Below are positions 4,896-27,487 of a stretch of 27,487 nt of DNA, piece by piece. How positions within the stretch are numbered: position 1 is the stretch's first letter; each line of letters begins with the position of its first letter. A model generated the notes under the pieces. That model did not search any database. It worked only from the letters and a program-made list of their open reading frames with translations, and was not told the DNA's origin. This DNA comes from a virus, in IMG/VR virus record IMGVR_UViG_3300027870_000342, positions 1-27,487 of that record; one strand, given 5' to 3'. The position numbers and the translations under genes were made by a program.

Positions 4896-5728
4896 TGGCC
4901 AACGGTATCGACTGGTTCCGCTGGCACCACGGAAGTGTAAACGACCCAAAATTCGGTCTGGTGGCCAAAAAGGCCGGTGCGCGCGTCGGCGACGTGATCG
5001 CGGTGTGGGCACTGGTACTGGAACAGGCCAGCGCAGCGACTGATCGCGGCACGCATGGCGCCATCGACTGCGACGCCACCGACTTCCTCCTGGGCGCCGA
5101 CGACGGCACCACCGCCCGCATTCTCGACGCAATGACCGGCCGCGGCCTGATCGCCGATGGTCGCGTCGCGCGCTGGGATGAGCGCCAGCCAAAGCGCGAG
5201 CGCGTGGACAGCACGGCTGCCGACCGCAAGCGCACGCAACGTGAGCGTGACAGCCTGCGTGACACCGACAAAGAAGGCCGTGACGCCGCCGTCACACCAA
5301 GTCACGCCATGTCACACCAAGTCACGCCTAGAGAAGAGGAGAGAAGAGAAGAGTTAACTTCAAAAGCTACTACCCCTGCCGGGGTAGTCGTCGCCAGCGA
5401 GGCTGGCAACCCGCCGTCAGGCCGTCCGCAAGCAGCGGCAAAACCGGAATGCCCGCACCAGGACATCATCGCGCTGTACCACGAGGTGCTGCCCGAGTGC
5501 CCCCAGGTGCGGGACTGGACGCCGGCCCGGGCCCAGCAGCTGCGCACCCGGTGGAACGAGGATCCGCGCCGGCAAAACCTCGAGTACTGGCGACAGTTCT
5601 TCGAGTATGTGAAGGGCTGCGGCTTTCTGGTCGGCCGCGGCACTGGCGACAGACCATTCGTGGCAGACCTGGAGTGGCTGACCAAATCGAAAAATTTCAC
5701 GAAGATCCGGGAAGGAAAATATGAATAA
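4895..5728 (+). CDS. Phage replication initiation protein (lambda O-like role)
   Basis: A 277-residue protein. Residues 1-100 begin MANGIDWFRWHHGSVNDPKF and look like the winged-helix N-terminal domain of phage replication proteins that precede a DnaB-type helicase. Residues 103-125 are highly charged. A hydrophilic linker (~130-185) follows, then a C-terminal domain (~188-277, HQDIIALYHEVLPECPQVRD onward) with the shape of a helicase-loading or DnaT-like domain. It starts in TAATG overlap with the previous gene and overlaps dnaB by 8 bp. The DNA that encodes the linker carries tandem repeats and a perfect hairpin that look like the replication origin (5241-5388), the same arrangement as lambda ori inside gene O. 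Origin binding and helicase recruitment are inferred from this layout. Confidence 0.8.
   Translation: MANGIDWFRWHHGSVNDPKFGLVAKKAGARVGDVIAVWALVLEQASAATDRGTHGAIDCDATDFLLGADDGTTARILDAMTGRGLIADGRVARWDERQPKRERVDSTAADRKRTQRERDSLRDTDKEGRDAAVTPSHAMSHQVTPREEERREELTSKATTPAGVVVASEAGNPPSGRPQAAAKPECPHQDIIALYHEVLPECPQVRDWTPARAQQLRTRWNEDPRRQNLEYWRQFFEYVKGCGFLVGRGTGDRPFVADLEWLTKSKNFTKIREGKYE
5241..5388. other. Candidate phage replication origin (iterons and hairpin)
   Basis: A 20-bp unit is repeated head to tail at 5291-5310 and 5311-5330 with 18 identical bases (GTCACACCAAGTCACGCC). Within it GTCAC recurs exactly every 10 bp (5291, 5301, 5311, 5321), one helical turn. The reverse motif GTGAC lies upstream at 5247, 5259 and 5280. 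Downstream come a 23-base all-purine run (5331-5353), TTAACTT, and a perfect 8-bp hairpin ACTACCCC/GGGGTAGT (5369-5376/5381-5388). The whole block encodes the protein's linker. Confidence 0.6.
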
Positions 5729-7076
5729 CGAGATCAAGGCTCCCCCGCACAGCATCGAGGCCGAGCAGAGCGTCATCGGCGCGATCCTGCGCGACAACGA
5801 CGCTTTCGACCGGCTTGGCGACCTGCGTGCCGAGCATTTTTACCTGAGCGACCATGCGGCGATCTTCGCCGAACTGCAGCGGCAGATCATGGCTGGCAAG
5901 CAGGTCGATGTGATTTCGATGATGGTGTCGCTGAACGGCAAGGTCGCCGATGCCGGCGCCTACCTGAATTCGATGGCGCAGGCGACGCCGTCGTCGGCCA
6001 ACGCCGGCCGCTACGCTGCGATCGTGCGCGACAAGGCACTGCGCCGCGCGCTGATCGGCTTTGGCCGCGACATGGCGGATGCGGCAGTCAACTCGCCCGA
6101 GGATGGTACCGCGCTGGTCGACCGGGCTTCGTCGCGCCTCGAGCAGCTGGCGGTGTCGCGGATCCGCGTCGAACCGGTGCGCGCCGCCGACGAGATGGCC
6201 GCCCACATCGAGTTGCTCGAGCGCCGCATGTCGGGTGGTTCGAACGCGATCTCCACCGGCTTCCCGGCCCTCGACGCGCGCCTGAACGGCGGCGTGCGGC
6301 GTGGCGGACTGGTGGTGCTGGCGGCGCGCCCGAAGATGGGCAAGACCGCGCTGGCGGTGAACATCGCTTGCCATGCTGCGGTCGATCACGCCGTGTCGGT
6401 GCTGTCGATGGAAATGCCGCGCACGGAGCTGCATGACCGCAACCTGGCCGCGCTCGGCCAGATCCCGCTGCCGCACCTGCTGCAGCCGAACCTGATGACG
6501 GATCAGGACTGGGGCAACCTGACCCACGCGGCGATGAAGATCAGCACCCTGAATCTGTTCCTGGACGACCAGGGCGGTTTGCGCATCCTCGACGTGCGCA
6601 TGAAGGCAAAGGGCATGAAGCGGCGCCACGGCCTGGACCTGCTGGTGATCGACTACCTGCAGTTGATGGAGGGCGACGGCGACAACCGCAACGCGCAGAT
6701 CGAGGGCATCACGCGCGGGCTCAAGGCGCTGGCCAAGGAGCTCGATATCGCGATCATCCTGCTGTCGCAGCTGAACCGCAAGCTGGAAGAGCGGCCAAAC
6801 AAGCGCCCGATGCCGTCCGACCTGCGCGACTCGGGCGCGATCGAGCAGGACGCGGACGCCGTGATCTTCCTGTACCGCGACGAGGTGTACAACCCGGACT
6901 CGCACGATGTCGGTATCTGCGAGGTCGACGTGGCCCTGTTCCGCCAGGGCGCGCCGGGCCGGGTCGCCCTGACCTACATCGGCGAGCAAACCCGCTTCGC
7001 CTCGCTCGACCGCAGCTGGATGCCGGCCAAGCCAGTCGAGAAGGCGCGGACGCGCGGCTTGGCGGCGCACTTATGA
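5721..7076 (+). CDS. dnaB: Replicative DNA helicase, DnaB family
   Basis: A 451-residue DnaB-type helicase of near-normal length (E. coli DnaB is 471). The N-terminal domain (~8-105) begins PPHSIEAEQSVIGAILRDND, the family's usual opening. The C-terminal RecA-like ATPase has Walker A ARPKMGKT (202-209), Walker B LLVID (307-311), and the LSQLNR (348-353) and DLRDSGAIEQDAD (367-379) motifs. It would unwind the phage fork as a hexamer and recruit primase. It overlaps the replication gene by 8 bp and its last 4 bases (ATGA) overlap the integrase start, so the three genes are one transcript. Carrying its own DnaB means the phage would not need a P-like loader to recruit the host helicase. Confidence 0.95.
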   Translation: MNNEIKAPPHSIEAEQSVIGAILRDNDAFDRLGDLRAEHFYLSDHAAIFAELQRQIMAGKQVDVISMMVSLNGKVADAGAYLNSMAQATPSSANAGRYAAIVRDKALRRALIGFGRDMADAAVNSPEDGTALVDRASSRLEQLAVSRIRVEPVRAADEMAAHIELLERRMSGGSNAISTGFPALDARLNGGVRRGGLVVLAARPKMGKTALAVNIACHAAVDHAVSVLSMEMPRTELHDRNLAALGQIPLPHLLQPNLMTDQDWGNLTHAAMKISTLNLFLDDQGGLRILDVRMKAKGMKRRHGLDLLVIDYLQLMEGDGDNRNAQIEGITRGLKALAKELDIAIILLSQLNRKLEERPNKRPMPSDLRDSGAIEQDADAVIFLYRDEVYNPDSHDVGICEVDVALFRQGAPGRVALTYIGEQTRFASLDRSWMPAKPVEKARTRGLAAHL

Positions 7077-8125
7077 CGGCGCACCTGTTCCGTGTAGGTG
7101 GCGGCAAGACATGGCACTACCGCTTCCAGGTTGCCGGCAAGCGCGTGCAGCGCAGCACCCGCGAAACCGCCAAGTTGCGTGCGGACCTCGTTGCACAGAA
7201 GGCCTACCGGGACGCGGTGGTGCGCGCGAACGGCGGCCAGCCGGTGCCCACGCTGCGCGAGCTGGCCGGCGCTTGGCTGGTTATCCACAGGCCGGTGTCG
7301 AGCAAGGCCCACATCCGCAGCGTGGAAACCTTCGTCAAGCTGCACATGTACGAACTCGGCGACCGGCCGATCGGGTCGATCACCACCACGGACGTCGAGC
7401 TGGCGCGCAACAAGCACCTCGAGACCCATAAGCCGTCAAGCGCAAACCACTGGCTGCGCATCCTGAAGCTGCTGGCGATGTGGGCGGTCAAGCGCGGCGC
7501 CATCCCCGCGCTGCCGTGGAAGGTGCAGATGCTGAAGGTGCAGAAGAAGCCGCGCGCGATCCTGCCGCTGCTCGCCGCACGCGCATGGTTCGCCGCAGTC
7601 GACCAGGCCGCCGCGCGCCGCCCGGCCGTCGGTACCGCGGTGCGCATGATGTTCGGCTTGGGCCTGCGCGAGTCGGAAGCCGCCAGCGCGCGCTGGGAGT
7701 GGATCGATTGGCAGCGCGCGACCTACACCCCTGGCATCACGAAGGGGCGCGAGGCCGAACCGGTACCGATCCCTTCCTGGCTTCTCGAGTACCTGGCGCC
7801 GATGCGCGCCGACCAGGGTCTGATCGCGCCGCGCGCAAACGGCGCCCAGCTGCCGCCCGGCTTCGCAGGCCGCGCCATGCACGCCGCCAACAGCGCCTGT
7901 TCGCTCAAGGGCATCACGCCCCACCGCCTGCGCGGGACCTTCGCCACCCTTCTCTCCGAGTCAGGTGTGCCGATCCAGACCATCCAGAAGGTCCTGCGCC
8001 ATAAGCACCCGATGACGACCATGGCCTACCTCGAGAAGAACCTCGACACGGCCGCGCTCGCGCAGAACAGCATCGGCGACAAGATCGGATTCGGGCGGCG
8101 CGATAGTGGCGAGACGACCGGATAA
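7073..8125 (+). CDS. int: Tyrosine-recombinase integrase
   Basis: A 350-residue site-specific recombinase. An N-terminal arm-binding region (1-50) and SAM-like core-binding domain (~58-150) precede the catalytic domain with the full set: Arg199 (GLGLRESEAA), Lys224 (TKGRE), His284 and Arg287 (HRLRGTF), His310 (LRHKHP) and Tyr319 (TTMAYLE). It inserts and excises the phage at attB/attP. Its ATG overlaps the dnaB stop (ATGA), so it is made as the last gene of the early rightward operon. This is odd: integrase genes are normally at a prophage end next to att, but here replication genes lie on one side and packaging genes on the other. No excisionase is seen near it. Confidence 0.95.
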   Translation: MTAHLFRVGGGKTWHYRFQVAGKRVQRSTRETAKLRADLVAQKAYRDAVVRANGGQPVPTLRELAGAWLVIHRPVSSKAHIRSVETFVKLHMYELGDRPIGSITTTDVELARNKHLETHKPSSANHWLRILKLLAMWAVKRGAIPALPWKVQMLKVQKKPRAILPLLAARAWFAAVDQAAARRPAVGTAVRMMFGLGLRESEAASARWEWIDWQRATYTPGITKGREAEPVPIPSWLLEYLAPMRADQGLIAPRANGAQLPPGFAGRAMHAANSACSLKGITPHRLRGTFATLLSESGVPIQTIQKVLRHKHPMTTMAYLEKNLDTAALAQNSIGDKIGFGRRDSGETTG

Positions 8126-8188: not shown

Positions 8189-8260
8189 GGGCTGTTGAAG
8201 GGCATTCAAAGGCGCTCGCCGGCGAAATCCGAATGTGTAATCCGGCATGAAAAGGGTGCG

Positions 8261-8293
8261 AAATAAGGCCGAATAAAGCCGAATAAAGCCGAA
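8261..8293. repeat. Helically phased 10-bp direct repeats
   Basis: GAATAAAGCC occurs twice in direct succession (8271-8280, 8281-8290), preceded by the variant AAATAAGGCC (8261-8270) and followed by GAAGCG. The 10-bp period puts each copy on the same face of the helix, which suits cooperative protein binding (integrase arm sites, or an activator of the downstream gene at 8417). Confidence 0.6.
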
Positions 8294-8416
8294 GCGCCGA
8301 GGGCGTCGCAGACGGCAGGGTGTCATAGGAAGGCGCGGGGTATCTGGGCATGGGACTGCCGGGATGGATTCGCCGAATTACTCACAAGAAACAATGAAAC
8401 TTATCGAGGGGATTGA

Positions 8417-8785
8417 ATGAGGAAGATGGACGAGCGTGAAATGGCCGACGCGCTGCTGGTGGAGTGGCACGACTGGACCGCATCGTATCGGCCTGCTCTC
8501 GGCGTCGAGCGCACATCGGCGACCTGCCGCCAGGCGCTGAGCAGCCGCCAGTACGAAGACAGCACCGAGGCCAGCTGCAGCGGCTTGTACGTGAACGAGA
8601 TGAAGTCGGTAGCGTTCTGCGTGGACCAGCTGCCGATCGCACAACAGGTGGCAATCGGCATCGAGATGCGCAATCGTGGCTCCCGCGCCCGTGTGTGGCG
8701 CAACGACAATGCCGACACGTACGAGAACGCGGTAGAGGCGATCCGCCCGATCTTTCGTCGGCGCGGATTGTTTGACGGAAAGTAG
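8417..8785 (+). CDS. Candidate late-gene antiterminator/regulator (Q position)
   Basis: ATG 8417 follows GAGGGG with a 5- to 6-base gap. The 122-residue product begins MRKMDEREMADALLVEWHDW, then has YRPALGVERTSATCRQALSS, CVDQLPIAQQVAIGIEMRNR and a basic end IRPIFRRRGLFDGK. I recall similar proteins just upstream of the terminase genes in betaproteobacterial phages, unannotated. No motif of the known Q families is visible. The evidence for a Q-like role is purely positional: it lies between the early operon and the terminase genes, and directly after its stop come a promoter (8786-8815) and two terminators (8853-8959), as in lambda Q-PR'-tR'. It could instead be an activator of that promoter or something unrelated. 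Confidence 0.5.
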   Translation: MRKMDEREMADALLVEWHDWTASYRPALGVERTSATCRQALSSRQYEDSTEASCSGLYVNEMKSVAFCVDQLPIAQQVAIGIEMRNRGSRARVWRNDNADTYENAVEAIRPIFRRRGLFDGK

Positions 8786-8815
8786 TTGACGGCCAGAAAA
8801 GTTTCCGTTTATCAT
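8786..8815 (+). promoter_or_regulatory. Late promoter, PR'-like
   Basis: TTGACG (8786-8791), an 18-bp spacer and TATCAT (8810-8815) begin at the stop codon of the Q-position gene. TTGACGG is also repeated 15 bp upstream (8772-8778), which could be a protein-binding site. It is the only clear promoter before the long late operon. Confidence 0.65.
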
Positions 8816-8852
8816 CCGCCCCGTGGTGGGAGAGTTGCGCCCACGCAAAACT

Positions 8853-8884
8853 AAGCCCCGCGCCGAAAGGTCAGCGGGGCTTTT
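8853..8884 (+). terminator. Leader terminator 1 (tR'-like)
   Basis: AAGCCCCGC (8853-8861) pairs perfectly with GCGGGGCTT (8874-8882) around a 12-base loop, followed by TTTT and GTATTT. It lies about 30 bases after the predicted late RNA start and before any late gene, so an unmodified RNA polymerase should stop here. Confidence 0.8.
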
Positions 8885-8926
8885 GTATTTCCGAGTCTCC
8901 TCTGCCGCCACAAGCGTGTGGGGTTC

Positions 8927-8959
8927 GCCCGCCAGGTGCAAGCCTGCGCGGGCTTTTTT
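8927..8959 (+). terminator. Leader terminator 2
   Basis: GCCCGCCAGG (8927-8936) pairs with CCTG-C-GCGGGC (8943-8953) with a single bulged C, followed by TTTTTT (8954-8959). This is a strong hairpin-plus-U-tract terminator, 31 bases before the small terminase ATG. Together with terminator 1 it makes late expression depend on read-through. Confidence 0.85.
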
Positions 8960-8989
8960 ATTCGTAACGTCACTGGGAGGGAGGAAAGC

Positions 8990-9583
8990 ATGGGCCGTAA
9001 ATCGTCGCTTACCCCCGAACAGTGGGCCGAGGTCGAGCGCCGCTACCTGGTCGACGGTGAATCGATCAACGCGCTGGCGGCTGAGTTCAAGGTGAACGAG
9101 TCGTCCATCCGTCGCAGGATCAAGCCAAGCGCTGGTGGGCCGGCCGGCGGGAAGAGCCCGCTGCATACCCTGGCGGAAGAGAAGGCGCGCGTCGACGCGG
9201 AAAACAAGCGCATCACCGCAAAGATCGCGGAACTGCCGATCGCAAACCAGCTGATCGTGTCCGACTTGGCGCGCAAGCTGAGCAACATCAGCGAGCACAT
9301 CGGGTCAGCAGCGGAGATCAGCGCGGCATCGGCGCACCGCCTGTCGATCCTGGCGAACCAGCAGCTGGACCTGGTGGATGACGTCAACCCGCTAAGCACA
9401 GGGTTGCAGCTGAAGACCTTCGAGGCGCTACAGAAGATGGCGAACGGCGCGAGCGAGATCCCGATGAACCTGCTGCGCGCGAACAAGGAAACGATCGAGT
9501 CGATGAACCGCGACACCTCGCGCGACCCGCCGCCGCCCTCGACCGAGGTGACGTTCAGGATTGTCCGCCCAAATGCAAATTGA
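8990..9583 (+). CDS. terS: Terminase small subunit
   Basis: ATG 8990 follows GGAGGGAGGAAAGC. The 197-residue protein has a helix-turn-helix N-terminus (SLTPEQWAEVERRYLVDGES, then INALAAEFKVNESSIRRRI), a long central helical oligomerisation region (~60-165) and a Pro-rich C-terminal tail (SRDPPPPSTE). This matches small terminase subunits that form a ring, recognise the pac site and hand DNA to the large subunit. It is first in the late operon and overlaps the large terminase gene. P22-type neighbours suggest headful packaging, with pac probably within this gene as in P22, though I cannot point to the site. Confidence 0.85.
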   Translation: MGRKSSLTPEQWAEVERRYLVDGESINALAAEFKVNESSIRRRIKPSAGGPAGGKSPLHTLAEEKARVDAENKRITAKIAELPIANQLIVSDLARKLSNISEHIGSAAEISAASAHRLSILANQQLDLVDDVNPLSTGLQLKTFEALQKMANGASEIPMNLLRANKETIESMNRDTSRDPPPPSTEVTFRIVRPNAN

Positions 9584-10976
9584 CCTGATCGAGGCCTTCG
9601 AGCCGTTGCTCTATCCGAAGCGGATCAAGTGCTACTACGGTGGGCGCGGCGCCGCGAAGTCCGAACAGTTCGCCGAGATGCTGGTGTACTGCGCATGGAA
9701 GTACGGCGACAAAATCCTGTGCGGCCGCGAGTTCCAGAACTCGATCGAGGATTCCAGCTACGCGCTGATCGTCGAGAAGATCGACAAGTTCGGCCTGCGC
9801 GGTTTTTTCGACGTGCAGGCGACCGCGATCTTCGGGCGCAATGGCTCCTGCTTCAAGTTCGTCGGCCTGGCGCGCAACATCGCATCGCTCAAGTCGAAGT
9901 TTGGCTACACGAAGGTGTGGATCGAAGAGGCCGAGACGGTGCAGGCCGGCACCTGGAAGGTGCTGATCCCCACCATCCGGGCCACGAATTCGGAGATCTG
10001 GATCTCGTTCAACCCAAACGAGGCCGAGGCGGCAACGTACCAGCAGTTCGTCGCGCCCTATGTGGACGCGATCAACAAGCAGAACTTCTTCGAGGACGAC
10101 TACATCTACGTGCGCAAGGTGTCGCACCGGGACAACCCGTACTTCCCGGAGACGCTGCGCGTCGAGATGGAGCGGGACAAGCAGGCCAACTTCAAGCGGT
10201 ACCTGCACGTGTGGGAAGGTGAATGCAACGCCGACTACGACGATTCGATCATCGAGGCCGAATGGATCGACGCCGCAGTGGACTCTCACCTCAAGCTGAA
10301 CTACCGCACGCGCGGCGAGCGTGTCCTGGGCTTCGACCCAGCCGACAGCGGCAGCGACGCGAAGGCGGTCACGAAGCGGTACGGCATGCTGGTCGAAGAC
10401 GTCAGGAAGTGGGACCACGGCGATATCGACGATGCGATCGCACTCGCCTTCGACGAGGCCTTCGAGTATCGGGCCGACGTGATCGTCTACGACAGCATCG
10501 GCGTGGGCGCCGGCGTGAAGGTCGGCTTGAAGGAGCGGATCGGCACCAGGTCGACCGAAGTTCAGGGCTTCGGCGCAGGCGATGCGCCGCGGCCAGGTCG
10601 GTACAAGGAAGACAAGAAAAATGAGGACGTGTTCCGCAACCTGCGCGCCCAAGGCTGGTGGCTGCTGCGCGACCGCTTCGAGAATACGTACAAGGCGATC
10701 ACCAAGGGCGAGTACTTCGACCCCGCCGACCTCATCAGCCTGTCGTCATCGATCAAGGACCTGGACGTGCTCAAGGCCGAACTGGTGCGACAGCAGCGTA
10801 AGCGCTCGTCGGGATCACGGCTGATCCAGCTGGTCAGCAAGGACGAGATGCGCGCACGAGGCGTCAAGTCCCCGAACATGGCCGACTCGCTGATGATGTC
10901 GTTCATGTTGCAGGAAAAGAAAGCACCGGCTTATGACTTCACTAAATCCGCCGCATCCGGCGCAAGGGCACTTTAA
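9573..10976 (+). CDS. terL: Terminase large subunit (packaging ATPase/nuclease)
   Basis: A 467-residue packaging motor, close to Sf6 gp2 (470). Walker A is GGRGAAKS (23-30), Walker B VWIEEA (115-120, catalytic Glu), and the coupling motif WISFNP is at 143-148. The RNase H-like nuclease domain shows Asp255 (GFDPADSG), Asp307 (VIVYDSIG) and Asp438 (NMADSLMMSF). This fits the Terminase_3/PBSX-type branch. I start at ATG 9573; an in-frame TTG at 9561 would add four residues. The gene overlaps terS by 11 bp and meets the portal ATG in a TAATG overlap. Confidence 0.95.
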   Translation: MQIDLIEAFEPLLYPKRIKCYYGGRGAAKSEQFAEMLVYCAWKYGDKILCGREFQNSIEDSSYALIVEKIDKFGLRGFFDVQATAIFGRNGSCFKFVGLARNIASLKSKFGYTKVWIEEAETVQAGTWKVLIPTIRATNSEIWISFNPNEAEAATYQQFVAPYVDAINKQNFFEDDYIYVRKVSHRDNPYFPETLRVEMERDKQANFKRYLHVWEGECNADYDDSIIEAEWIDAAVDSHLKLNYRTRGERVLGFDPADSGSDAKAVTKRYGMLVEDVRKWDHGDIDDAIALAFDEAFEYRADVIVYDSIGVGAGVKVGLKERIGTRSTEVQGFGAGDAPRPGRYKEDKKNEDVFRNLRAQGWWLLRDRFENTYKAITKGEYFDPADLISLSSSIKDLDVLKAELVRQQRKRSSGSRLIQLVSKDEMRARGVKSPNMADSLMMSFMLQEKKAPAYDFTKSAASGARAL

Positions 10977-13219
10977 TGGCTAACGACCTGAAACAAGCGC
11001 AGGACATGTACCAGGACGCGCTCGACGCGACCCGCGAGCAGCGCATGCAGATCGAGGAAGACCTGAAGTTCTCCGACCCGTCGAACCCGCAGCAGTGGGA
11101 CGAGGCGGTCAAGCGGCAGCGCGAGAACGACCCGGGCGGCGCGCGGCCCTGCCTGGTGATGGATCACACCGGCCAGTACGTCGCCAACGTCGCCGGCCAG
11201 GTGAACAAGTCGCCGCCGGCAATCCACACGGTACCGGTTGGTTCGGGCTCGGATGTGAAGGTGTCCGAGCAGCTCGACGGCATGATCCGCCACATCGAAT
11301 ACGCCAGCCGCGCGCAGACGCATTACGGCACCGCACTGACATCGGCCGCCCGCACCGGCATCGGCTACCTGATCGTGCGCCCGGAATATGTCGACCGCGC
11401 GATGGGCTACCAGGAACCGCGCATCAAGGCGGAGGCAGATCCGCTGCGCGTGGTGTTCGACCCGTGGAGCGTCGAACTGGACGGCAGCGACGCCACCTTC
11501 GGTTACCTGCTCACCTCGATGAGCGAGCGCGAGTTCGAACGCAAGTACGGCGCCAAGGCCGAGAAGGTCAGCTTCGGCGCCGACCAGCGGCAGATGGACG
11601 GCCAGGGCGATCGCAAGTCGGTCATGGTCGCAGAGCAGTGGTACAAGGAAGAAAAAACCCGCAACACCATCATCTGGGTCGGCCTGGACGGTCAGGAGAC
11701 CAGCGGGCCGGAGGACGACTACCACGCAGCCTGCCAGGCAGCCGGCCGCCAGCTGCTGTTCGTGCGCAACTACAAAGAGAAGGTCCAGTGCGTGAAGTGG
11801 CGCACGATGAGCGGTGCGGAGATCCTCGACACGGCAAAGAACGCGGACGGCAGCGAGGCGCTGTACCCGGCCGACGCAATCGGCATCGTCCCGGTGTACG
11901 GTTACTGGGGCGTGACCGATGGTCGCCTGAAGTACTGCGGCATTCCCCGCCGCGCGATGAACCCGCAGCGCGCGTACAACTATCACAAGTCGGAGGAGCT
12001 GGCCTTCATGGGCAGCGCGCCGAAAGCGCCGTTCATGGCATCGGTGCGCGCGATCCGCGGCCTCGAGGCGTTGTGGGACCGCGCCTCGATCGATTCGCGC
12101 GCCTACCTGCCCTACAACGACGTCGACGAGAGCGGCCAGCCGGTATCCGCACCGACCCGCCCGAACATCGCGGTCAACCTGCAGAACCACATCCTCGGCG
12201 CGCAGGAAGCGTTGCACGACCTCGAGGCGACCATCGGCATGTACCAAGCCAACCTGGGCGCACCGAGCAACGAATCTTCCGGCGTGGCGATCGACGCGCG
12301 CAAGCAGCAGGGCGAGGCCAGCACGTCGCACTTCCCGCAGAACCTAGCTTCGTCGCTGGGACAGGTCGGGCGCATCGTCGTGCAGATGTCGACCAAGCTG
12401 ATCGACACCAAACGCCAGCAGCGCATCATGGGAATCGACATGAAGCCGGGCAGCGTGACGATCGACCCAAAACAGCAGCAGGCCGTGCAGCAAGCCGACC
12501 AGGGCGTGATCATCAACCCGAACGTCGGCCAGTACGACGTGCGGGTGGTGGTAGGCGCGAGCTTCAGCACGCAGCGCAGCCAGGCGCAGGCAGCGCTCGG
12601 CGAAGTGATGCGTAACAACCCGGAAATGACGCCGGCGATCGCGCCGCTATGGGCCCAGAACCTCGACATCCCGCACGCCGAGAAGCTGGCCCAGGTGCTG
12701 ACTGCGATGGCGCCGCCGCAGGTGCAGTCGATCCTCAATCCGGACGCCGGCAAGCAGCCGAAGCCCGAGCAAATGATGCAGCAGGTACAGCAGGCCCAGA
12801 AGGCGCTGCAGGAAGCGATCCAGCACGCGCACGAAGCGCAGGCCGAAGCCGACCAGGCGCAGCAGCAGTTGCAGGACAAGAGCGAGGAACTGCGCACGAA
12901 GGAGCGCGAGCTCGACATCAAGGCCTACGACGCGGAAACGAAACGCCTGCAGCTGACCAGCTCGGCGATGACGCCCGAGCAGATCCAGTTGATGGTCGCG
13001 CAGACGGTCGACACCATGCTGAGCCACGCTGCCCCGTTGCCATCCGAGGCGTCGCAGCCGGTCGCACAGCCGGTGGAGCAGCAGCAGGCCGCAGCGCCGG
13101 CGCCGCCCGATCCGGCGCCCGAACAGACAGACGATCCAGCTGCATTGGAGCAGCCAGCAACCCCACCGAACCCGCCAAGCGCGGGTTTTTCTTTGCCTGA
13201 CCCACCACAAGGAGCATGA
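10976..13219 (+). CDS. P22-type portal protein
   Basis: A 747-residue portal, near the 725 of P22 gp1. It begins with a helical segment (ALDATREQRMQIEEDLKFSD), then the phrase RPCLVMDHTGQYVANVAGQV and the GYLIVRPEYVDRAMGYQEPR / VVFDPWSVELDGSDATFGYL region typical of the P22 portal family. Residues ~590-675 are a long Gln/Glu/Ala-rich helix that corresponds to the C-terminal barrel of P22 portal, and the end is Pro/Gln-rich. Twelve copies form the capsid vertex for DNA passage. It starts in TAATG overlap with terL and its ATGA end overlaps the scaffold start. A terminator-like hairpin is embedded 10 codons before the stop. Confidence 0.93.
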   Translation: MANDLKQAQDMYQDALDATREQRMQIEEDLKFSDPSNPQQWDEAVKRQRENDPGGARPCLVMDHTGQYVANVAGQVNKSPPAIHTVPVGSGSDVKVSEQLDGMIRHIEYASRAQTHYGTALTSAARTGIGYLIVRPEYVDRAMGYQEPRIKAEADPLRVVFDPWSVELDGSDATFGYLLTSMSEREFERKYGAKAEKVSFGADQRQMDGQGDRKSVMVAEQWYKEEKTRNTIIWVGLDGQETSGPEDDYHAACQAAGRQLLFVRNYKEKVQCVKWRTMSGAEILDTAKNADGSEALYPADAIGIVPVYGYWGVTDGRLKYCGIPRRAMNPQRAYNYHKSEELAFMGSAPKAPFMASVRAIRGLEALWDRASIDSRAYLPYNDVDESGQPVSAPTRPNIAVNLQNHILGAQEALHDLEATIGMYQANLGAPSNESSGVAIDARKQQGEASTSHFPQNLASSLGQVGRIVVQMSTKLIDTKRQQRIMGIDMKPGSVTIDPKQQQAVQQADQGVIINPNVGQYDVRVVVGASFSTQRSQAQAALGEVMRNNPEMTPAIAPLWAQNLDIPHAEKLAQVLTAMAPPQVQSILNPDAGKQPKPEQMMQQVQQAQKALQEAIQHAHEAQAEADQAQQQLQDKSEELRTKERELDIKAYDAETKRLQLTSSAMTPEQIQLMVAQTVDTMLSHAAPLPSEASQPVAQPVEQQQAAAPAPPDPAPEQTDDPAALEQPATPPNPPSAGFSLPDPPQGA
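13169..13190 (+). terminator. Terminator-like hairpin inside the portal 3' end
   Basis: AACCCGC (13169-13175) pairs perfectly with GCGGGTT (13181-13187) around a 5-base loop and is followed by further T residues (13188-13190, then CTTT). It lies within the coding sequence, 30 bp before the stop. It would cut transcription ahead of the scaffold and coat genes unless polymerase is antiterminated or ribosomes mask it. Confidence 0.6.
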
Positions 13220-14052
13220 CTTTGGACCCTAATCAAACCGCATCGCCAACTGGCGGCGCACCCGCCGCGGCGGGCGAGACCGCAAACAACGGCGCCGAGC
13301 ACGAATTCAACCCGGGCAACCCGGGCGAAGGCACTGCCGCCGGCGCTGGCGAAGGCGAAGGCAAAGAGCCGGGGACGGAAGCGAAAAAGGAAAAGACGCC
13401 CGAGCAGCGCGAGATCGACCGCCTGCGCCGCCGCGTCGACAACCTGACGCGCCAGAAGTACGAGCTGCGGGCGGCCACGCCTGCGGCGGCAGCACAGCAG
13501 CAGCAACCCAGCCAGGCGGACGACGACGAGCCCGTGACGCTGACCCGCGCCGAACTGCAGCGGCAGATCGAAGCGCAAGCACGCCAGCTTGCACCATCGA
13601 TGACCGAGCAGCAGGCCGAGGCCGAGCGTCGCCATGGGGTGGTCACAACGCTGGCCAAGGAATGGGGCCCGGAAAAGTTCGACACCCTTTCGGCCGAGCT
13701 GGACGAGGCCTTCGGTGGCCTCGCGGATCGCAGCGGCATGCCCAAGCCTGCCACCGACGCGATCTTCCACGCCGACAACCCGAAGGCGGTCATCGAATAC
13801 CTGACCGACCCCGACAATGCGGACGAAGCGGACCGCCTTTCGAAGATGACAGCTGTTCAGGCCGGGCGCGCGATCGCCAAGCTTGAGGGAAAGCTCGACG
13901 CCGAGAAAGCCAGCGCGAAGCCCAAGCCAAGCAATGCGCCCTCGCCCCTCGAGCCGGCGCGCGGCGGCGGTGTGCCCAACGGCATGCCGGACCCATCCAA
14001 CACCAAGGCCTACATCGCCTGGGCAAATGCCCAGGAACGGGCACAACGCTAA
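13216..14052 (+). CDS. Scaffolding protein
   Basis: A 278-residue, highly charged, Ala/Glu/Pro-rich protein between portal and coat, the place of P22 gp8 (303 aa). The first 60 residues are disordered, then QREIDRLRRRVDNLTRQKYE (64-83) is a coiled coil, with more helix at ~105-150. The basic/charged C-terminal helix PSNTKAYIAWANAQERAQR could be the coat-binding end, as in P22. It guides coat assembly and leaves the procapsid before packaging. The ATGA overlap with portal and the weak sequence conservation are both usual for scaffolds. Confidence 0.85.
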   Translation: MTLDPNQTASPTGGAPAAAGETANNGAEHEFNPGNPGEGTAAGAGEGEGKEPGTEAKKEKTPEQREIDRLRRRVDNLTRQKYELRAATPAAAAQQQQPSQADDDEPVTLTRAELQRQIEAQARQLAPSMTEQQAEAERRHGVVTTLAKEWGPEKFDTLSAELDEAFGGLADRSGMPKPATDAIFHADNPKAVIEYLTDPDNADEADRLSKMTAVQAGRAIAKLEGKLDAEKASAKPKPSNAPSPLEPARGGGVPNGMPDPSNTKAYIAWANAQERAQR

Positions 14053-14065
14053 ATAGGAGCCTCAC

Positions 14066-15340
14066 ATGGCAAACGCACTCGTCACTTCGCAGGTCGTCAC
14101 CAACGAAGTGCTGCGCATCGCGCACAACAGCTCGGCATTCCTGGGCAACATGAATTCGGACTACAAGGATTCGTGGGAGAAGGAGCTCAAGCCTGGCCAG
14201 AAAGTCAGCGCCCGCGCCCCGGTCCAGTTCACCCACCGCACCGGCGAGACCGCCAACGTGCAAGACGTCACCGAGCGCAGCACCGACGTGACCCTGCAGC
14301 CGCTGCTGGGTCTCGACTTCGCGGTTGGCTCGACCGAACTGGCCACCTCGATCGGCGGCGACGGCAAGGTTAGCAAGGCGTTCAAGGAGCGCTACCTCAA
14401 ACCGGCCGGCCTGAAGCTGGCGGCGATCCTCGACTACAACCTCGGCAACATCCTGAAAAACGGTGCACACCAGATCGTCGGCACGCCTGGCACCCCGCCG
14501 GCCACCTTCGCCGACCTGCTGCAGGCCGGTGTGCCCCTGGACCGCATGAGCGTGCCGCGCGACGGCATGCGCATGGCTGCCATCGAGCCTGGCGCGAACG
14601 CGACCATCGTCGCGGGCCTGGCTGGCCTGTTCAACAACAAGGAAGTGCTGGGCGAGCAGTACAAGACCGGCATCATCAAGACCGGCGCCGGCCTCGACAT
14701 CGCGATGTCGCAGAACGTGCCGTCGCACACCGTCGGCCCGCTGGGCGGCGCACCGGTGGTGAACGGCGCAGGCCAGGGCATCACCAATGCCGGCGCCACC
14801 GACAACCCGTATGCGGCCACCACCAGCCTGGTGACCAACGGCTGGACCGCCGCTGCCGCGCTGCGCCTGAACCAGGGCGACACCTTCACGCTGGCCGGCG
14901 TGTTCTCGGTCAATCCCGAGACCAAGCAGTCGACCGGCGTGCTGCAGTCCTTCCTGGTGACGGCTGCCGTCTCGTCGGATGCCGGCGGCAACGCCACCAT
15001 CGTGTGCAGCCCGGCGATCATCGCCGGCGGCGCCTACCAGAACGTGACGGCGCGCCCGAACGCAGGCGCCGCGCTGACGGTGACCTCGGGCGCCGCCAAC
15101 ACGACCTACACCCAGAACATGGTGTGGCACCGTGACGCGATCACCTTCGTCTCGCCCAAGCAGGAACTGCCGGGCGGCATGGACATGGCCTACCAGGCAT
15201 CGATGGCCGACGAGGGCGGCGTGTCGCTGCGCTTCGTGCGCGGCTACGACATCACCAACAACAAGTTCGTCAGCCGCTTCGACATCCTCTGGGGTGCTGC
15301 CGTGACGCTGCCGAACTTCGCGGTGCGCCGTACCAACTAA
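14066..15340 (+). CDS. Major capsid (coat) protein, P22 gp5-like
   Basis: A 424-residue coat protein (P22 gp5 is 430). It begins MANALVTSQVVTNEVLRIAH, followed by the GETANVQDVTERSTDVTLQP block and a DFAVGSTELATSI stretch typical of the P22 coat family (HK97 fold with an inserted I-domain; residues ~230-345 are the Gly/Ala/Thr-rich inserted part). The end MADEGGVSLRFVRGYDITNN is also characteristic. AGGAGCCTCAC lies before ATG 14066. A strong hairpin follows the gene (15350-15374). Confidence 0.95.
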   Translation: MANALVTSQVVTNEVLRIAHNSSAFLGNMNSDYKDSWEKELKPGQKVSARAPVQFTHRTGETANVQDVTERSTDVTLQPLLGLDFAVGSTELATSIGGDGKVSKAFKERYLKPAGLKLAAILDYNLGNILKNGAHQIVGTPGTPPATFADLLQAGVPLDRMSVPRDGMRMAAIEPGANATIVAGLAGLFNNKEVLGEQYKTGIIKTGAGLDIAMSQNVPSHTVGPLGGAPVVNGAGQGITNAGATDNPYAATTSLVTNGWTAAAALRLNQGDTFTLAGVFSVNPETKQSTGVLQSFLVTAAVSSDAGGNATIVCSPAIIAGGAYQNVTARPNAGAALTVTSGAANTTYTQNMVWHRDAITFVSPKQELPGGMDMAYQASMADEGGVSLRFVRGYDITNNKFVSRFDILWGAAVTLPNFAVRRTN

Positions 15341-15349
15341 AGCAGGCCC

Positions 15350-15374
15350 GGGGCCGGCTCGCAAGGCTGGCCCC
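15350..15374 (+). other. Strong hairpin after the coat gene, no T-tract
   Basis: GGGGCCGGC (15350-15358) pairs with GCTGGCCCC (15366-15374), nine pairs with one G-U, around a 7-base loop. No U-tract follows (GCTTCCCC), so it is more likely an RNA-stabilising 3' hairpin for the highly expressed coat message, or a processing/pausing site, than a terminator. Confidence 0.5.
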
Positions 15375-15403
15375 GCTTCCCCATCCATTTCAGGAGAATC
15401 ACC

Positions 15404-15556
15404 GTGTACCCACTCAATATGCAACTGGTCAAGGGCATCGGCTTTGCCGTCGCGAACGACGAAGACGAGCACAAGGATCTGACCGACAAGGGCTATGGCC
15501 CGGCTTTCGTCCCGGCGCCAGAAGCGGCCGGCAGCAAGAAAAAAGCGGCCGAGTAA
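15404..15556 (+). CDS. Small hypothetical virion-cluster protein, 50 aa
   Basis: A short gene with a GTG start at 15404, seven bases after AGGAG (15392-15396). The product begins MYPLNMQLVKGIGFAVANDE, then DEHKDLTDKGYGPAF and a Lys/Ala-rich tail (AAGSKKKAAE). It is close in shape to small proteins between the coat and head-completion genes of other phages. It ends 3 bp before the next ATG. The ribosome binding site and tight packing support a real gene. Function unknown. Confidence 0.65.
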   Translation: MYPLNMQLVKGIGFAVANDEDEHKDLTDKGYGPAFVPAPEAAGSKKKAAE

Positions 15557-15559
15557 GCC

Positions 15560-15955
15560 ATGACGACGGCCCGCACCATCATCACGCTCGCGCTCGAGGC
15601 GATGAACCGCCTCGCGCCGGGCGAGGCCCTCGACGCCGACCTGGCGGCCGTGTGCCTGCGCCGGCTCAACGCAATCGCCGATGACTGGAGCGCGCGCCGC
15701 GACTTGCTGCCGGTCGCCAGCTTCTCCGACCTCGACACCGCCAACGTGGTGCCGTCCGGCTACCAAGGCGCCCTGGCGGCGTCGCTGGCGGTCGCTCTGG
15801 CGCCGGCCCTGCTCGGCGGCGTAACGCCCAGCTTGCTCATGGCCGAGAAGAAGGCGCTGTTCAACGTGGCAAACAACGTGCTCCCGGCCATCCTTTCGGT
15901 GAACCCGCTGTCACCACGCTGCGACAGCAGCAACATCCTGAATGGGTGGAACTGA
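15560..15955 (+). CDS. Head completion/head-tail adaptor, P22 gp4-like
   Basis: A 131-residue mainly helical protein in the place of P22 gp4 (166 aa). The opening MTTARTIITLALEAMNRLAP, then LDADLAAVCLRRLNAIADDW and the helix YQGALAASLAVALAPALLGG follow the adaptor pattern seen in gp4/gp6-type connectors: a helical bundle that binds the portal after packaging. P22 gp4 is also a muramidase with a longer C-terminus; this shorter protein lacks that extension. Its TGA overlaps the ATG of the next gene (TGATG). Confidence 0.8.
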   Translation: MTTARTIITLALEAMNRLAPGEALDADLAAVCLRRLNAIADDWSARRDLLPVASFSDLDTANVVPSGYQGALAASLAVALAPALLGGVTPSLLMAEKKALFNVANNVLPAILSVNPLSPRCDSSNILNGWN

Positions 15956-17340
15956 TGGCCGGCCGCAACTACATCCCTTGCATCGGCCCGAGCTACCACC
16001 TGGACGACCGCAAGGCGGCGGTGCAGACGGCGATCAACTGCTACCTTGAGCAGGTCGAAGGCCTGGGCGAGACGCGCACCCTGACCCAGGTATCTGCGCC
16101 CGGGCTGGCAGCCTACCTGTCGCTGGGCGCCGAGGTGCGTGGCCAGCGTAACGTCGAGGGCCGCTGGTTCGTCGCCGCCGGCGGCGCGCTGCTCGAGATC
16201 ATCGACGGCGCCGCCGTCAACCGCGGCACGCTGTCGAGCGGCGCCGGCGTGGTCAACATGGCGCACAACAACACCCAGCTGGTGATCGTCGGCGGCACTG
16301 GCGGCGACGTGTTCAACCTGGCCAGCAACGCGATCGCGCCGATCACCTCGGAGGGCTGGCGCGGCTCGAAGTCGGTCGGCTTCATCGACGGCTACACGAT
16401 CTTCGTCGCGCCCGGCACCGACCAGTTCTATATCACCGCGCTCGACGACGCCAGCACGATGGATGCGCTCGACTTCTCGTCGGCAGATGCCCAGCCGGAC
16501 AACATCGTCAGCGCCCTGGTGCTGCACCGCGAGCTGATCCTGCTCGGCCTGTACACCACCGAGATCTGGGGCAACAGCGGCGGCGCGATGTTCCCGTTCG
16601 CGCGCTACAACTCGGCACAGGTCGACGTCGGCTGCGTCGGCAAGGATGCCTGCATCGTCGCGGCCGACTCGGTGTTCTGGATCGGCCAGACCCGCACCGG
16701 CAGCGGCATTGTGTACCGCATGACCGGCCATGCGCCGGTGCGCGTGTCGACGCGCGCGATCGAGCAGCTGCTGGCCAAGTCGACCGACCTTGCCGCAGCC
16801 AGCATGTGGACCTACCAGGTCGACGGCCACGAGTTCGTCGCCATCAACGCACCAGGCCTGGCCACGACGCTGGTGTTCGACGCGGCGATGCAGCAGTGGC
16901 ACGAGCGCGCCGAGTGGCAGGCCGGCTGGGCGCCGTTGCGCGTCACCTCGGTGTGCTTCGTCAACGGTGGCCAGTACGCGGGTGACGCCGCCGGCAACCT
17001 GTACCGGTTTGACCCGGAGGTGTACGTCTACGGCAGCGACCCGCTGGTGCGTGAACGCACCTGGCCGCACATGGTGAAGGCCAGCATGGAACCGATCGCG
17101 TTTGCCGGCCTCGAGCTGGCCTGCACCACCGGCCACGGCGGCGCCGTGACGCTGGAACTGTCGAACAATGGCGGCTTCACGTTCGGGCCCCCGCTGATGC
17201 GCTCACTCGGCGCGATCGGCCAGTGGATGCAGAAAGTGCGCTGGCTGATGCTCGGTACCGCGCACGATCGCGTGTTCCGCATTCGCTGCTCGGATCCTGT
17301 TCCGTTCAACATTCACGCGGTGGCGGTGGCCGATGCTTAG
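15955..17340 (+). CDS. Packaged DNA stabilisation/tail hub protein, P22 gp10-like
   Basis: A 461-residue protein (P22 gp10 is 472). It begins MAGRNYIPCIGPSYHLDDRK and is beta-rich throughout, with IGQTRTGSGIVYRMTGHAPV and PVRVSTRAIEQLL segments typical of the gp10 family, a beta-propeller-like hub between gp4 and the tail needle/tailspikes. I start at ATG 15955 (TGATG overlap with the previous stop) and not at GTG 15946, which would add three residues. Its end overlaps the next gene by 8 bp. Confidence 0.9.
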   Translation: MAGRNYIPCIGPSYHLDDRKAAVQTAINCYLEQVEGLGETRTLTQVSAPGLAAYLSLGAEVRGQRNVEGRWFVAAGGALLEIIDGAAVNRGTLSSGAGVVNMAHNNTQLVIVGGTGGDVFNLASNAIAPITSEGWRGSKSVGFIDGYTIFVAPGTDQFYITALDDASTMDALDFSSADAQPDNIVSALVLHRELILLGLYTTEIWGNSGGAMFPFARYNSAQVDVGCVGKDACIVAADSVFWIGQTRTGSGIVYRMTGHAPVRVSTRAIEQLLAKSTDLAAASMWTYQVDGHEFVAINAPGLATTLVFDAAMQQWHERAEWQAGWAPLRVTSVCFVNGGQYAGDAAGNLYRFDPEVYVYGSDPLVRERTWPHMVKASMEPIAFAGLELACTTGHGGAVTLELSNNGGFTFGPPLMRSLGAIGQWMQKVRWLMLGTAHDRVFRIRCSDPVPFNIHAVAVADA

Positions 17341-17800
17341 CGTCCCGCCACCAACCCGGGTCGCTCTCGGCACGATCGACATCGGGGGCAAGAAATTCGA
17401 GCTGTTCGTATCGCCGGAATGGGCGCGCTATTTTCAGTCGCTCAACGGCCAGGTGCTGGCCGGTGGCGTCGCGCTGGCTGGAAGCTCGCCACATAGCGCT
17501 CTGCTGGCCGAGAGCGCCGAGGCGCCGGACTGGTTCCCCTCCCCGCCCGGGCCGCCCGGAGCAAAGGGGGATCCCGGGCCAGCGCTCTTCCTGCTGCAGG
17601 ACGATGCGCGCGAGGACGCGCCGCTGCTGCCGCCGCCGGCCAGCGCGCCTGCCGGACCGGTTCCGGGCAGCTTCACAACCTTGATGGCGAGCGCCGGTTT
17701 CGGCTGCAACGGCAAGGCTGCGCAGGCGGCCGTGGCATCGGGCGGCACGCTGGCCGGCGTGATCGCCGCATTGGTAGCAAACGGCATTCTCTCAAGTTAA
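17333..17800 (+). CDS. Collagen-like virion protein in the gene 26 slot
   Basis: A 155-residue protein. The N-terminal 60 residues (VALGTIDIGGKKFELFVSPE, WARYFQSLNGQVLAGG) look like a trimerisation or attachment domain. Then comes a collagen-like run GPPGAKGDPGP (73-83), a Pro-rich linker (~98-112), and a C-terminal domain FGCNGKAAQAAVASGGTLAG ending in a hydrophobic helix (VIAALVANGILSS). It occupies the position of P22 gene 26, the trimeric tail needle. Collagen-like triplets support a trimeric fibre, but the length is short of a full needle (gp26 is 233 aa). The role as plug or short fibre is inferred. Confidence 0.7.
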   Translation: MLSVPPPTRVALGTIDIGGKKFELFVSPEWARYFQSLNGQVLAGGVALAGSSPHSALLAESAEAPDWFPSPPGPPGAKGDPGPALFLLQDDAREDAPLLPPPASAPAGPVPGSFTTLMASAGFGCNGKAAQAAVASGGTLAGVIAALVANGILSS

Positions 17801-17809
17801 GGAACCCAG

Positions 17810-18181
17810 ATGGCATCGAACAAAACCTTCCGCTTCGGCCCGGTCGCGCTGAGCGCGGTCCTCACTACCAACCTGCTCAATCCGCCCGCGGCGGCCGGAG
17901 GCGTGAACGCTGGCGCATCGCCCCAGTACATCGTCCTGAAGCACCTGCGCGTCGTGAACAGAACCGGTCTCGCCGTTCCGTTCTCGATGTGGCTGGGCGC
18001 GACTGGCGCGAACGCAGCCGGCACCGAGGTGATCGGACAGGGCCAGGTCGTCACCGCCAACAGTTCGTACGACTGGTATGGGCTGCTGCGGCTCGACGCG
18101 GCCGACTTCCTGGTGGGAGGCGCAGGTACAGCGAACGCCTTGTCGATTTCGGGCGAAGGCGAGATCGGGGTGGCCGGCTGA
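17810..18181 (+). CDS. Putative minor structural protein, beta-rich
   Basis: A 123-residue protein with AAGGAA before ATG 17810. The sequence is beta-rich: YIVLKHLRVVNRTGLAVPFS, then MWLGATGANAAGTEVI and a SISGEGEIGVAG end. Similar short proteins (V-x-N-x-T-x-x-x-x-x-x-x-L-x-x-G-A-T-G) occur in the structural clusters of other phages, without a defined role. No signal peptide or membrane span. Its TGA overlaps the next ATG (TGATG). Decoration, head-tail joining or fibre-base protein are all possible. Confidence 0.7.
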   Translation: MASNKTFRFGPVALSAVLTTNLLNPPAAAGGVNAGASPQYIVLKHLRVVNRTGLAVPFSMWLGATGANAAGTEVIGQGQVVTANSSYDWYGLLRLDAADFLVGGAGTANALSISGEGEIGVAG

Positions 18182-18642
18182 TGGAAATCACCTATGGCAA
18201 GGGCTTCGAACCCGTCGTGTCGATGCGCCAGAAGGTCGAGCGCGTGCAGGAGGCGCTGGCCAAGCTGCCCCAATACGAGCCGAAGACCACGCACCGCTTC
18301 CATGCTGGCATGTACTGCCGCGAAGTGTGGCGTGCAGCCGGCGTGATGGTGGTCGGAAAGGTGCACAAGAAGGAGCATTTTTACCTGATCGTCAGCGGCA
18401 CCGTGTGCATCAGCGACGGGATCGGCGAACCACAGCGCTTTACCGGGCCGCACATGATCGAAAGCCTGCCCGGCACCAAGCGCGCGGTGTTCGCGGAAAC
18501 CGACGTGCTGTGCATGACGTTCCACCGCACGGATGCCATCACCGTCGAGGCGGCCGAGGATGAACTGGTCGAGGAGGAGGAAGCGACCATGTACAGCCCC
18601 GGCAATCTAATCAGGAACCAGAATCAGGGAGTATTGCGATGA
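18181..18642 (+). CDS. Cupin-fold phage protein
   Basis: A 153-residue protein. Residues ~36-120 read as a single cupin barrel: THRFHAGMYCREVWRAAGVM, VVGKVHKKEHFYLIVSGTVC and ESLPGTKRAVFAETDVLCMT. His62 and His66 could serve as metal ligands. The last 35 residues are acidic (EAAEDELVEEEEA) then polar. Similar cupins are scattered in structural regions of phages and have no proven function; small-molecule or sugar binding in the virion, or a host-directed enzyme, are options. It is coupled on both sides (TGATG upstream, ATGA downstream), within the tract that carries P22 gene 14. Confidence 0.75.
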   Translation: MEITYGKGFEPVVSMRQKVERVQEALAKLPQYEPKTTHRFHAGMYCREVWRAAGVMVVGKVHKKEHFYLIVSGTVCISDGIGEPQRFTGPHMIESLPGTKRAVFAETDVLCMTFHRTDAITVEAAEDELVEEEEATMYSPGNLIRNQNQGVLR

Positions 18643-19352
18643 CTTTTTGGGTTGCAGGGGCAGCAGTAGTTGCGGGTATCGGCGGCGCCATGATCGGCTC
18701 GAACGCTGCGGGCGACGCTGCGGACTCGCAGGCCGAGGGGACCGCCAACGGCATTGCCGAGAATCGAAGGCAGTTCGATATCACCCAGGCCAACCAAGCG
18801 CCGTACCTGGCTGCCGGCAAAGCCGCGCTCGGTACGCTGGCTTCGGAAAATGACACGCCGCTCGATCAGAGCAAGATCCAGATGGATCCTGGCTACCAGT
18901 TCGGCCTCCAGCAGGGTCAGCAGGCCATCGCCCGCCAGACGGCAGCAGGTGGTGGACGGATCTCCGGCGCCGCATTGAAGGCCGCGGCGCAATATGGCAC
19001 CGATTACGCGACCACCGGTTACAGCGCAGCGTACGGCCGCGTCAACCAGGCTCGCACCGACCGCCTGAACCGGCTTGCAGCGCTGGCAGGGGTTGGGCAG
19101 ACCGCTACGCAAAACGTAGGCGCCGCTGGCGCGCAGGCCGCAGGCGCGAACAGCGCGCTGATGGTCGCCGCAGGCAACAACGCCGGCGCGGCCCAGATCG
19201 CACAGGGCAACATCTGGGGCGACGCTGGTAACCAGCTCGCGGCGCTCTACGGGCGTAATTACGGAACTGGCGGGATCACGGACGCGCAGGTAAATCAGAG
19301 CCATACGGACGGCATGGCGTACATCAACAGGCAGCTTGCGAGCGAAGGATAA
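18639..19352 (+). CDS. DNA ejection protein, P22 gp7-like
   Basis: A 237-residue protein (P22 gp7 is 229). It has a hydrophobic Gly/Ala-rich N-terminus (VAGAAVVAGIGGAMIGSNAA), typical of ejection proteins that enter the host envelope. A Gln-rich middle follows (GYQFGLQQGQQAIARQTAAG), the GYQF...GxxAIxRxxAAxGG..SG motif of this family, and Ala-rich helices. It is ejected with the DNA to help form a conduit across the cell envelope. The ATGA overlap with the cupin gene and a 2-bp gap to the next gene place it in the gp7-gp20-gp16 order. Confidence 0.85.
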   Translation: MTFWVAGAAVVAGIGGAMIGSNAAGDAADSQAEGTANGIAENRRQFDITQANQAPYLAAGKAALGTLASENDTPLDQSKIQMDPGYQFGLQQGQQAIARQTAAGGGRISGAALKAAAQYGTDYATTGYSAAYGRVNQARTDRLNRLAALAGVGQTATQNVGAAGAQAAGANSALMVAAGNNAGAAQIAQGNIWGDAGNQLAALYGRNYGTGGITDAQVNQSHTDGMAYINRQLASEG

Positions 19353-19354
19353 CA

Positions 19355-22659: not shown

Positions 22660-22678
22660 GTTACCCACAGCCCCTCCG

Positions 22679-22704
22679 GCCCACCCTCACCAGGTGGGCT
22701 TTTT
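22679..22704 (+). terminator. Tandem terminator 1 before the tailspike
   Basis: GCCCACC (22679-22685) pairs perfectly with GGTGGGC (22693-22699) around a 7-base loop, followed by TTTTT (22700-22704). It starts 20 bp after the ejection gene stop. Confidence 0.85.
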
Positions 22705-22710
22705 CATTTC

Positions 22711-22735
22711 AGCCTCGCACTTCGCGGGGCTTTTT
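22711..22735 (+). terminator. Tandem terminator 2 before the tailspike
   Basis: AGCCTCGC (22711-22718) pairs with GCGGGGCT (22724-22731; one U-G pair) around a 5-base loop, with TTTTT at 22731-22735. The two terminators share the sequence GGGCTTTTTCATT. They would end head-gene transcription before the tailspike and lysis genes unless polymerase is modified. Confidence 0.8.
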
Positions 22736-22749
22736 CATTAGGACGACCG

Positions 22750-24165: not shown

Positions 24166-24172
24166 GACCCCT

Positions 24173-24967: not shown

Positions 24968-25024
24968 CAGCAACCTGGGCGCTCAGCATCCTGCCGGTCG
25001 CCGACTCAAAACAATATTTCACCT

Positions 25025-25420
25025 ATGAAAGCATTCAAAATGAGCGAACCTTTTTCCGGCACAGCTGCCGGTGTGGTCGGCTGGAAGTTCATCGGCGGCC
25101 TGGCCGGGATGGGCGCTATCGGTGCCGCACTCGCTGCCTTCGTCGTCATGGCGATGACCAAGCCCAAGAGCGAGCAGGAATGGCGCGTGGCCCTGGCCTG
25201 CACACTGGTCGGCTCGATTGGCGGTGGCGCCGCGCTGGTGCGTTACCTCGGCATCCAGAGCTGGGCCGAGGACACCTTTGGCATGGTGGCAATGATGGCC
25301 ATGGCGTTCACGTGCGGCCTGCCGGCCTGGGCACTCGTGCGCGCGCTGTTCAAGTACCTCGACAAGCGCAAGGATGCCGACCTGATGGAGATCGTCAAGG
25401 ATGTGAAGGAGGCAATCTGA
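25025..25420 (+). CDS. Holin-like membrane protein, possible dual start
   Basis: A 131-residue protein with three predicted membrane spans (about 23-44, 54-75 and 84-108) and a charged cytoplasmic tail (KYLDKRKDADLMEIVKDVKE). It lies directly before the endolysin and overlaps it by 1 bp (TGATG), the place of a holin. The N-terminus MKAFKMSEPF has two Met codons 5 residues apart with two Lys between them. This recalls lambda S, where a longer, more positive form acts as antiholin. Ribosome binding sites are poor for both starts. Holin function is inferred from topology and context. Confidence 0.8.
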   Translation: MKAFKMSEPFSGTAAGVVGWKFIGGLAGMGAIGAALAAFVVMAMTKPKSEQEWRVALACTLVGSIGGGAALVRYLGIQSWAEDTFGMVAMMAMAFTCGLPAWALVRALFKYLDKRKDADLMEIVKDVKEAI

Positions 25421-27405: not shown

Positions 27406-27442
27406 GATCCATACAGCTTCTGCTGTAAGTCTTTGATTCTCT

Positions 27443-27487
<45 letters not shown>

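Follow-up and report, generated by a model that had tools for sequence, protein, structure and literature searches.

The antiterminators of phages lambda and 21 (Q), Pseudomonas aeruginosa (AlpA) and the Caulobacter gene transfer agent (GafZ) all bind between the -35 and -10 elements (PMC6606751, PMC7969949, PMC11150451). Q and AlpA are loaded at a promoter-proximal RNA polymerase pause, and the polymerase is then carried through terminators (PMC6606751, PMC7969949, PMC9371919). The known Q and AlpA promoters depend on a -10-like element close to where transcription starts, and the GafZ site between -35 and -10 is near-palindromic, with terminators being bypassed as well (PMC11150451). Since Q-like antiterminators share a mechanism and almost no sequence, many of them are left without annotation.

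In this study, we describe a candidate Q-type late switch with an unrecognised antiterminator in a soil phage of podovirus type. The stretch of DNA analysed here, referred to as the window, comprises the 27,487 bases of virus record IMGVR_UViG_3300027870_000342.

Gene organization and the 122-aa protein

The window encodes a DnaB helicase (5721-7076) and a tyrosine recombinase (7073-8125), followed on the + strand by the gene of a 122-aa protein (8417-8785), which is the candidate late antiterminator (Q analogue). The first late gene, terS (8990-9583, + strand), was assigned to the small terminase subunit from weak HTH and terminase-small-subunit matches and its position directly 5' of terL (PF04466, starting at 9573); the gene of a P22-type portal starts at 10976. 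In the interval that separates the recombinase and 122-aa genes, three tandem GCCGAATAAA-like 10-mers were observed (8258-8297), with similar ones in the related contigs L003 and L015, and these could be recombinase arm sites. The window ends (27440-27487) in what looks, on the minus strand, like the 3' portion of a tRNA, and the same feature occurs at L125:15-72, close to the left end of a related contig; a trimmed prophage end or an attachment site is the probable explanation. The phage of L125 has the 122-aa gene, and inspection of its minus strand by eye (L125:4008-6848) showed a reverse transcriptase like those of diversity-generating retroelements together with lectin-like target ORFs.

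The initial annotation had regarded the 122-aa protein as a member of no recognised family and devoid of a known Q signature, and both statements held. The protein gave no match in Pfam, PHROGs, NCBIfam, PDB sequences or 50,697 phage records, and a plasmid search returned nothing except a single alignment at E=0.6. In IMG/VR, four further distinct copies were found (75-99% identity to the window protein), namely those of L001 (99%), L015 (83%), L002 (75%; L003 is identical to L002) and L004 (75%). In all copies, hence in five phages including the window, the order gene, promoter, leader and terS was kept; as only these five close homologues are at hand, the link between gene and promoter may partly reflect common descent. 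Pairwise dN/dS was 0.14-0.23 for divergent pairs and 0.03 for the near-identical pair, demonstrating that the gene is real and that purifying selection acts on it. No distant homologues beyond the five were detected via alignments, terminase neighbours or the promoter pattern, and a match in the genome contigs, L005 (Thermoleophilia), proved spurious because it falls on a stretch of unrelated ORFs.

Comparison with 21Q, lambda Q and AlpA revealed no family, profile or fold match. Namely, PF06530 was not matched by the window protein (P0001) at E<=1 or by the five members at E<=10, likeness to lambda Q was absent from the Pfam, PHROG and PDB sequence searches, and AlpA, the structure of which has been published (PMC9371919), was not matched in the PDB sequence search. 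The alignment of the 122-aa protein scored an hhalign probability of 0.7 against a nine-member Q21 alignment, and probabilities of 0.1-0.7 were obtained against the phrog_19609 and Q21 sets; since the alignment is shallow (Neff 1.3), distant homology to the Q sets is compatible with these null results. Direct homology to phrog_19609 or Q21 was not found at the level of either sequence or profile. Structure models from two different lead sequences were of low confidence (pLDDT 50 and 53), too poor to reveal an HTH such as the sigma-R4-like one with which phage 21 Q forms a ring in the RNA exit channel, and Foldseek searches with them gave no match in PDB or viral structures.

Late promoter and spacer palindrome

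Directly 3' of the TAG stop of the 122-aa gene, the + strand carries a -35 element TTGACG (8786-8791) and, after 18 nt, a -10 element TATCAT (8810-8815), which together match the consensus at 10/12 positions, so that the promoter proposed in the initial annotation is indeed present. In the five phages TAGTTGAC at the -35 element is invariant, and the -10 element reads TATCAT or CATCAT. This was the best site in the 7-14 kb region (2 found versus 0.8 expected in shuffles) and the sole match to a stricter promoter pattern in the whole window. A different reading, in which a second TTGACG at 8772 serves as the -35, the spacer as the -10 and TATCAT as a -10-like pause site, was rejected on account of the TTCGAT found in L002.

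The promoter spacer contains the palindrome GAAAAGTTTC (8796-8805, + strand, -27 to -18), the proposed binding element of the 122-aa protein, which occurs once in the window (0.08 occurrences expected). Its consensus GAAAA(G/C)TTTC (GAAAASTTTC) was invariant in 9/10 columns among the five phages, a conservation that would be expected of a Q-type binding element between -35 and -10. Invariant fourfold-degenerate sites of the 122-aa gene amounted to 7/38 in the same phages; thus the palindrome, as well as the two leader blocks described below (+1 to +22 and between the hairpins), is far more conserved than synonymous sites. Such invariance would be very improbable had these positions drifted as fourfold sites do, the binomial values for this comparison being indicative only, as they ignore shared ancestry and the blocks were chosen after looking. 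The promoter-plus-palindrome pattern was found in 63 other stretches of IMG/VR, none of which had a homologous gene or was followed by a terminator within 260 nt, and both were present in 5/5 family members.

Initial transcribed block and predicted pause

With the start site predicted at 8823, the first 22 transcribed positions (8823-8844, + strand) form the block GTGGTGGGAGAGTTGCGCCCAC (block A), of which 21/22 columns are invariant. The pattern of the five phages, GTGGTGGGAGAG(T/G)TGCGCCCAC, in its exact form occurs within IMG/VR only in the five-phage family. At 8828-8839 on the + strand, all positions of the extended elemental pause consensus G-11 G-10 T-3 G-2 Y-1 G+1 (PMC6062546) are matched, with the RNA 3' end predicted at C8838 (+16); such matches occur at 0.76 per kb in the window, corresponding to 0.011 expected over the 15 start positions concerned. 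The predicted +16 pause lies near the pause at +16/+17 of lambda pR' (PMC7876045), although this correspondence was noticed after looking and amounts to a prediction. A -10-like sigma-pause element was looked for at +1 to +22, but none of the hexamers there keeps A2 and T6 in all five phages, the best candidate being GAGAGT (8830-8835) in the window, which is GAGAGG in L002 and L004.

Leader hairpins

Two strong terminators had been assigned to the interval before terS; both hairpins were found, the second of which is a strong intrinsic terminator, but the first looks weaker. Hairpin 1 (8853-8882, + strand; -20.9 kcal/mol, z -4.1) is followed by a short T-run (8881-8884, tail TTTTG), and hairpin 2 with its T6 tract (8927-8959, + strand; -22.0 kcal/mol, z -4.4) consists of a stem at 8927-8953, the ten pairs of which are all unvaried in the five phages, and the tail TTTTTT at 8954-8959. 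In L004, the inner half of hairpin 1 is replaced yet the stem is kept, with two pairs changed on both sides, and in L002 the U-run of this hairpin is broken (CTGTTG). As the leader covariation is confined to those two pairs and 46/500 shuffles scored as high, it supports hairpin 1 weakly. Counts of terminator-like patterns across the whole region were at chance level (6 found, 7.4 expected), and the case for the leader hairpins is thus founded on the fold z-scores and the conservation in five phages.

Between the hairpins lies a further block, ATTTCCGAGTCTCCTC (8887-8902, + strand; block B), in which 16/16 columns are invariant among the five phages. Hairpin 1 is retained even though its terminator tail is not. 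The single-sequence fold also suggested that block A pairs at long range with sequence 3' of hairpin 1, a reading that was discarded because the extended helix is broken in L002. The leader RNA is conserved, and a search of the window against Rfam gave no match.

Late operon

It had also been claimed that no other promoter stands before the late operon and that further terminators lie inside it, and the present analysis agrees on both counts. A promoter scan of the + strand from 8960 to 26400 yielded two 9/12 promoter-like sites, at 12402 and 26352, neither of which is placed to drive the operon. Inside the operon, the + strand carries a terminator-like hairpin within the portal gene (13168-13188) and two tandem terminators at 22678-22731 (22678-22700 and 22711-22731). 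The late operon, of about 17 kb, is thus without a competing promoter and contains further terminators.

These features bear on the possibility that the 122-aa protein acts on the late promoter at initiation, as a classical activator or as a repressor, with no antitermination. A palindrome within the promoter would suit an ordinary operator equally well; however, the promoter already stands at 10/12 to consensus, and activation alone does not bypass two terminators before the first late gene and more downstream. We therefore regard an initiation-level regulator as unlikely.

Antiterminator genes of terminase relatives

The best annotated relatives of the window TerL are those of the APSE phages (about 50% identity). 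In APSE-1, the P5 protein encoded between the helicase and the late genes is a PF06530 antiterminator (1.9e-50). Closer relatives were found in IMG/VR, where L051, L054 and L055 encode TerL proteins 72-73% identical to that of the window and carry a phrog_19609-type protein in the same interval, with short ORFs between it and the leader. The L051 and L054 proteins, both of which were scanned, matched phrog_19609 ('unknown function') at 1e-16 or better, and the former also matched phrog_79 at 3.6e-05 ('anti-termination protein Q-like'). When the phrog_19609 and Q21 sets were compared by hhalign, the probability was 93.9 (E 1.6e-07) over 112 columns, which is nearly full length. On the strength of this profile comparison, phrog_19609 is probably an unannotated antiterminator Q family, a branch of the Q21 superfamily.

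Members of this family, which belong to Burkholderiales phages, were located at L022:5821-6246, L026:2501-2914, L051:2545-2913, L054:4198-4587 and L055:4554-4919, as well as in L027-L047. In IPK, Magia and L027-L047, the phrog_19609 gene is followed by a promoter, a conserved leader and a terminator, so that the Burkholderia/Paraburkholderia phages Magia and IPK and their IMG/VR relatives have the gene-promoter-leader-terminator order of the window. The promoter of IPK and Magia overlaps the end of the phrog_19609 gene and precedes a leader hairpin and the terminator. A DNA match between IPK and the window was dropped, being confined to terminator 2, but it led to the phrog_19609 family. Other phages with a related terminase (L012:2700-2890, L060:760-1010, and L053 and L057) likewise seem to carry, immediately upstream of terS, a promoter-like stretch, a leader and at least one terminator, the sequences of which differ.

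The occurrence of Q-type proteins in the same interval of phages with a similar terminase also speaks against antitermination by RNA alone, in which the leader RNA (block A, hairpin 1 and block B) would act in cis like HK022 put and the 122-aa protein would do something else. Conservation of the leader exceeds that of its neighbours, its invariant blocks are unneeded by terminators alone, and hairpin 1 kept its stem in L004 and lost its T-run in L002, all of which would suit a functional RNA. Invariant DNA is, however, also found in the promoter spacer, which precedes the start and whose conservation an RNA cannot explain, and the leader is always accompanied by the 122-aa gene; an RNA-only mechanism thus appears improbable. 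Another possibility, that the noncoding conservation 5' of terS chiefly reflects packaging (cos/pac) or attachment, with incidental promoter and hairpins, is very improbable. Although the stretch, like lambda cos, directly precedes the terminase genes, the conserved positions are those of the promoter, +1 to +22, the hairpin stems and the T-run, and in headful phages with a P22-type portal pac is usually found inside the terS gene.

Proposed mechanism

The Q-PR'-tR' geometry on which the initial annotation was built is real, is conserved with the gene in five phages and sits where terminase relatives have Q-type antiterminators. Judged by this anatomy, the locus is best explained as a Q-type late switch whose antiterminator has gone unrecognised, and this reading is quite likely the correct one. 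In such a switch, the near-consensus promoter (8786-8815) would probably be active unaided and would yield no more than a leader RNA of some 60-137 nt, ending at the two leader terminators as long as the antiterminator is missing. The 122-aa protein, encoded by the last gene of the early operon, would bind the GAAAASTTTC palindrome between -35 and -10, be loaded onto RNA polymerase at the promoter-proximal pause (predicted RNA 3' end at +16) and travel with the polymerase, allowing it to read through the leader terminators and the ones at 13.2 kb and 22.7 kb.

A more specific and tentative version, which we consider possible but rather doubtful, is that the 122-aa protein evolved independently as an antiterminator, has a fold unrelated to those of 21Q, lambda Q and AlpA, binds the spacer palindrome and loads at the +16 elemental pause without a -10-like sigma-dependent pause. 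With protein, proposed binding element, pause and terminators lying within 600 bp, the cassette is a compact, testable case and could serve to test the need for a sigma-dependent -10-like pause in the loading of such factors. The same anatomy, namely a short gene abutting a promoter with a conserved spacer palindrome, a terminator and terS, may be used to search for other unrecognised antiterminators.

Comparison with known antiterminator systems

The resemblance of the 122-aa protein to Q is one of anatomy, and membership of any Q family is unsupported by its sequence. As with phage 21 Q and other PF06530 proteins (including APSE P5 and QuuD), its gene lies between the replication genes and the late operon, and as with phage 21 Q a promoter with a sequence element in its spacer and one or more terminators stand 5' of the late genes. 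Unlike 21 Q, to which no sequence or profile similarity was detectable, the locus has a palindrome in place of the direct repeats TGAGCA, and the -10-like pause element of the phage 21 promoter was not found.

With the phrog_19609 proteins (IPK, Magia, L027-L047, L051, L054 and L055), the 122-aa protein shares its short length and, for L051, L054 and L055, a related terminase, but it has no similarity to them, and the promoter and leader sequences differ. AlpA is likewise small and without sequence similarity to Q, with an element between -35 and -10 and terminators before the first gene (PMC7969949, PMC9371919); it differs in its dependence on a -10-like sigma pause located at -1 to +5 and in its element GGGACGN5GGTA. 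GafZ, likened here by description, differs in acting with GafY and IHF, and it agrees with the present locus in its palindromic element between -35 and -10 and in the bypassed terminators. Common to the locus and to late promoters of the Q type is, finally, the presence of terminators between the late promoter and the first late gene.
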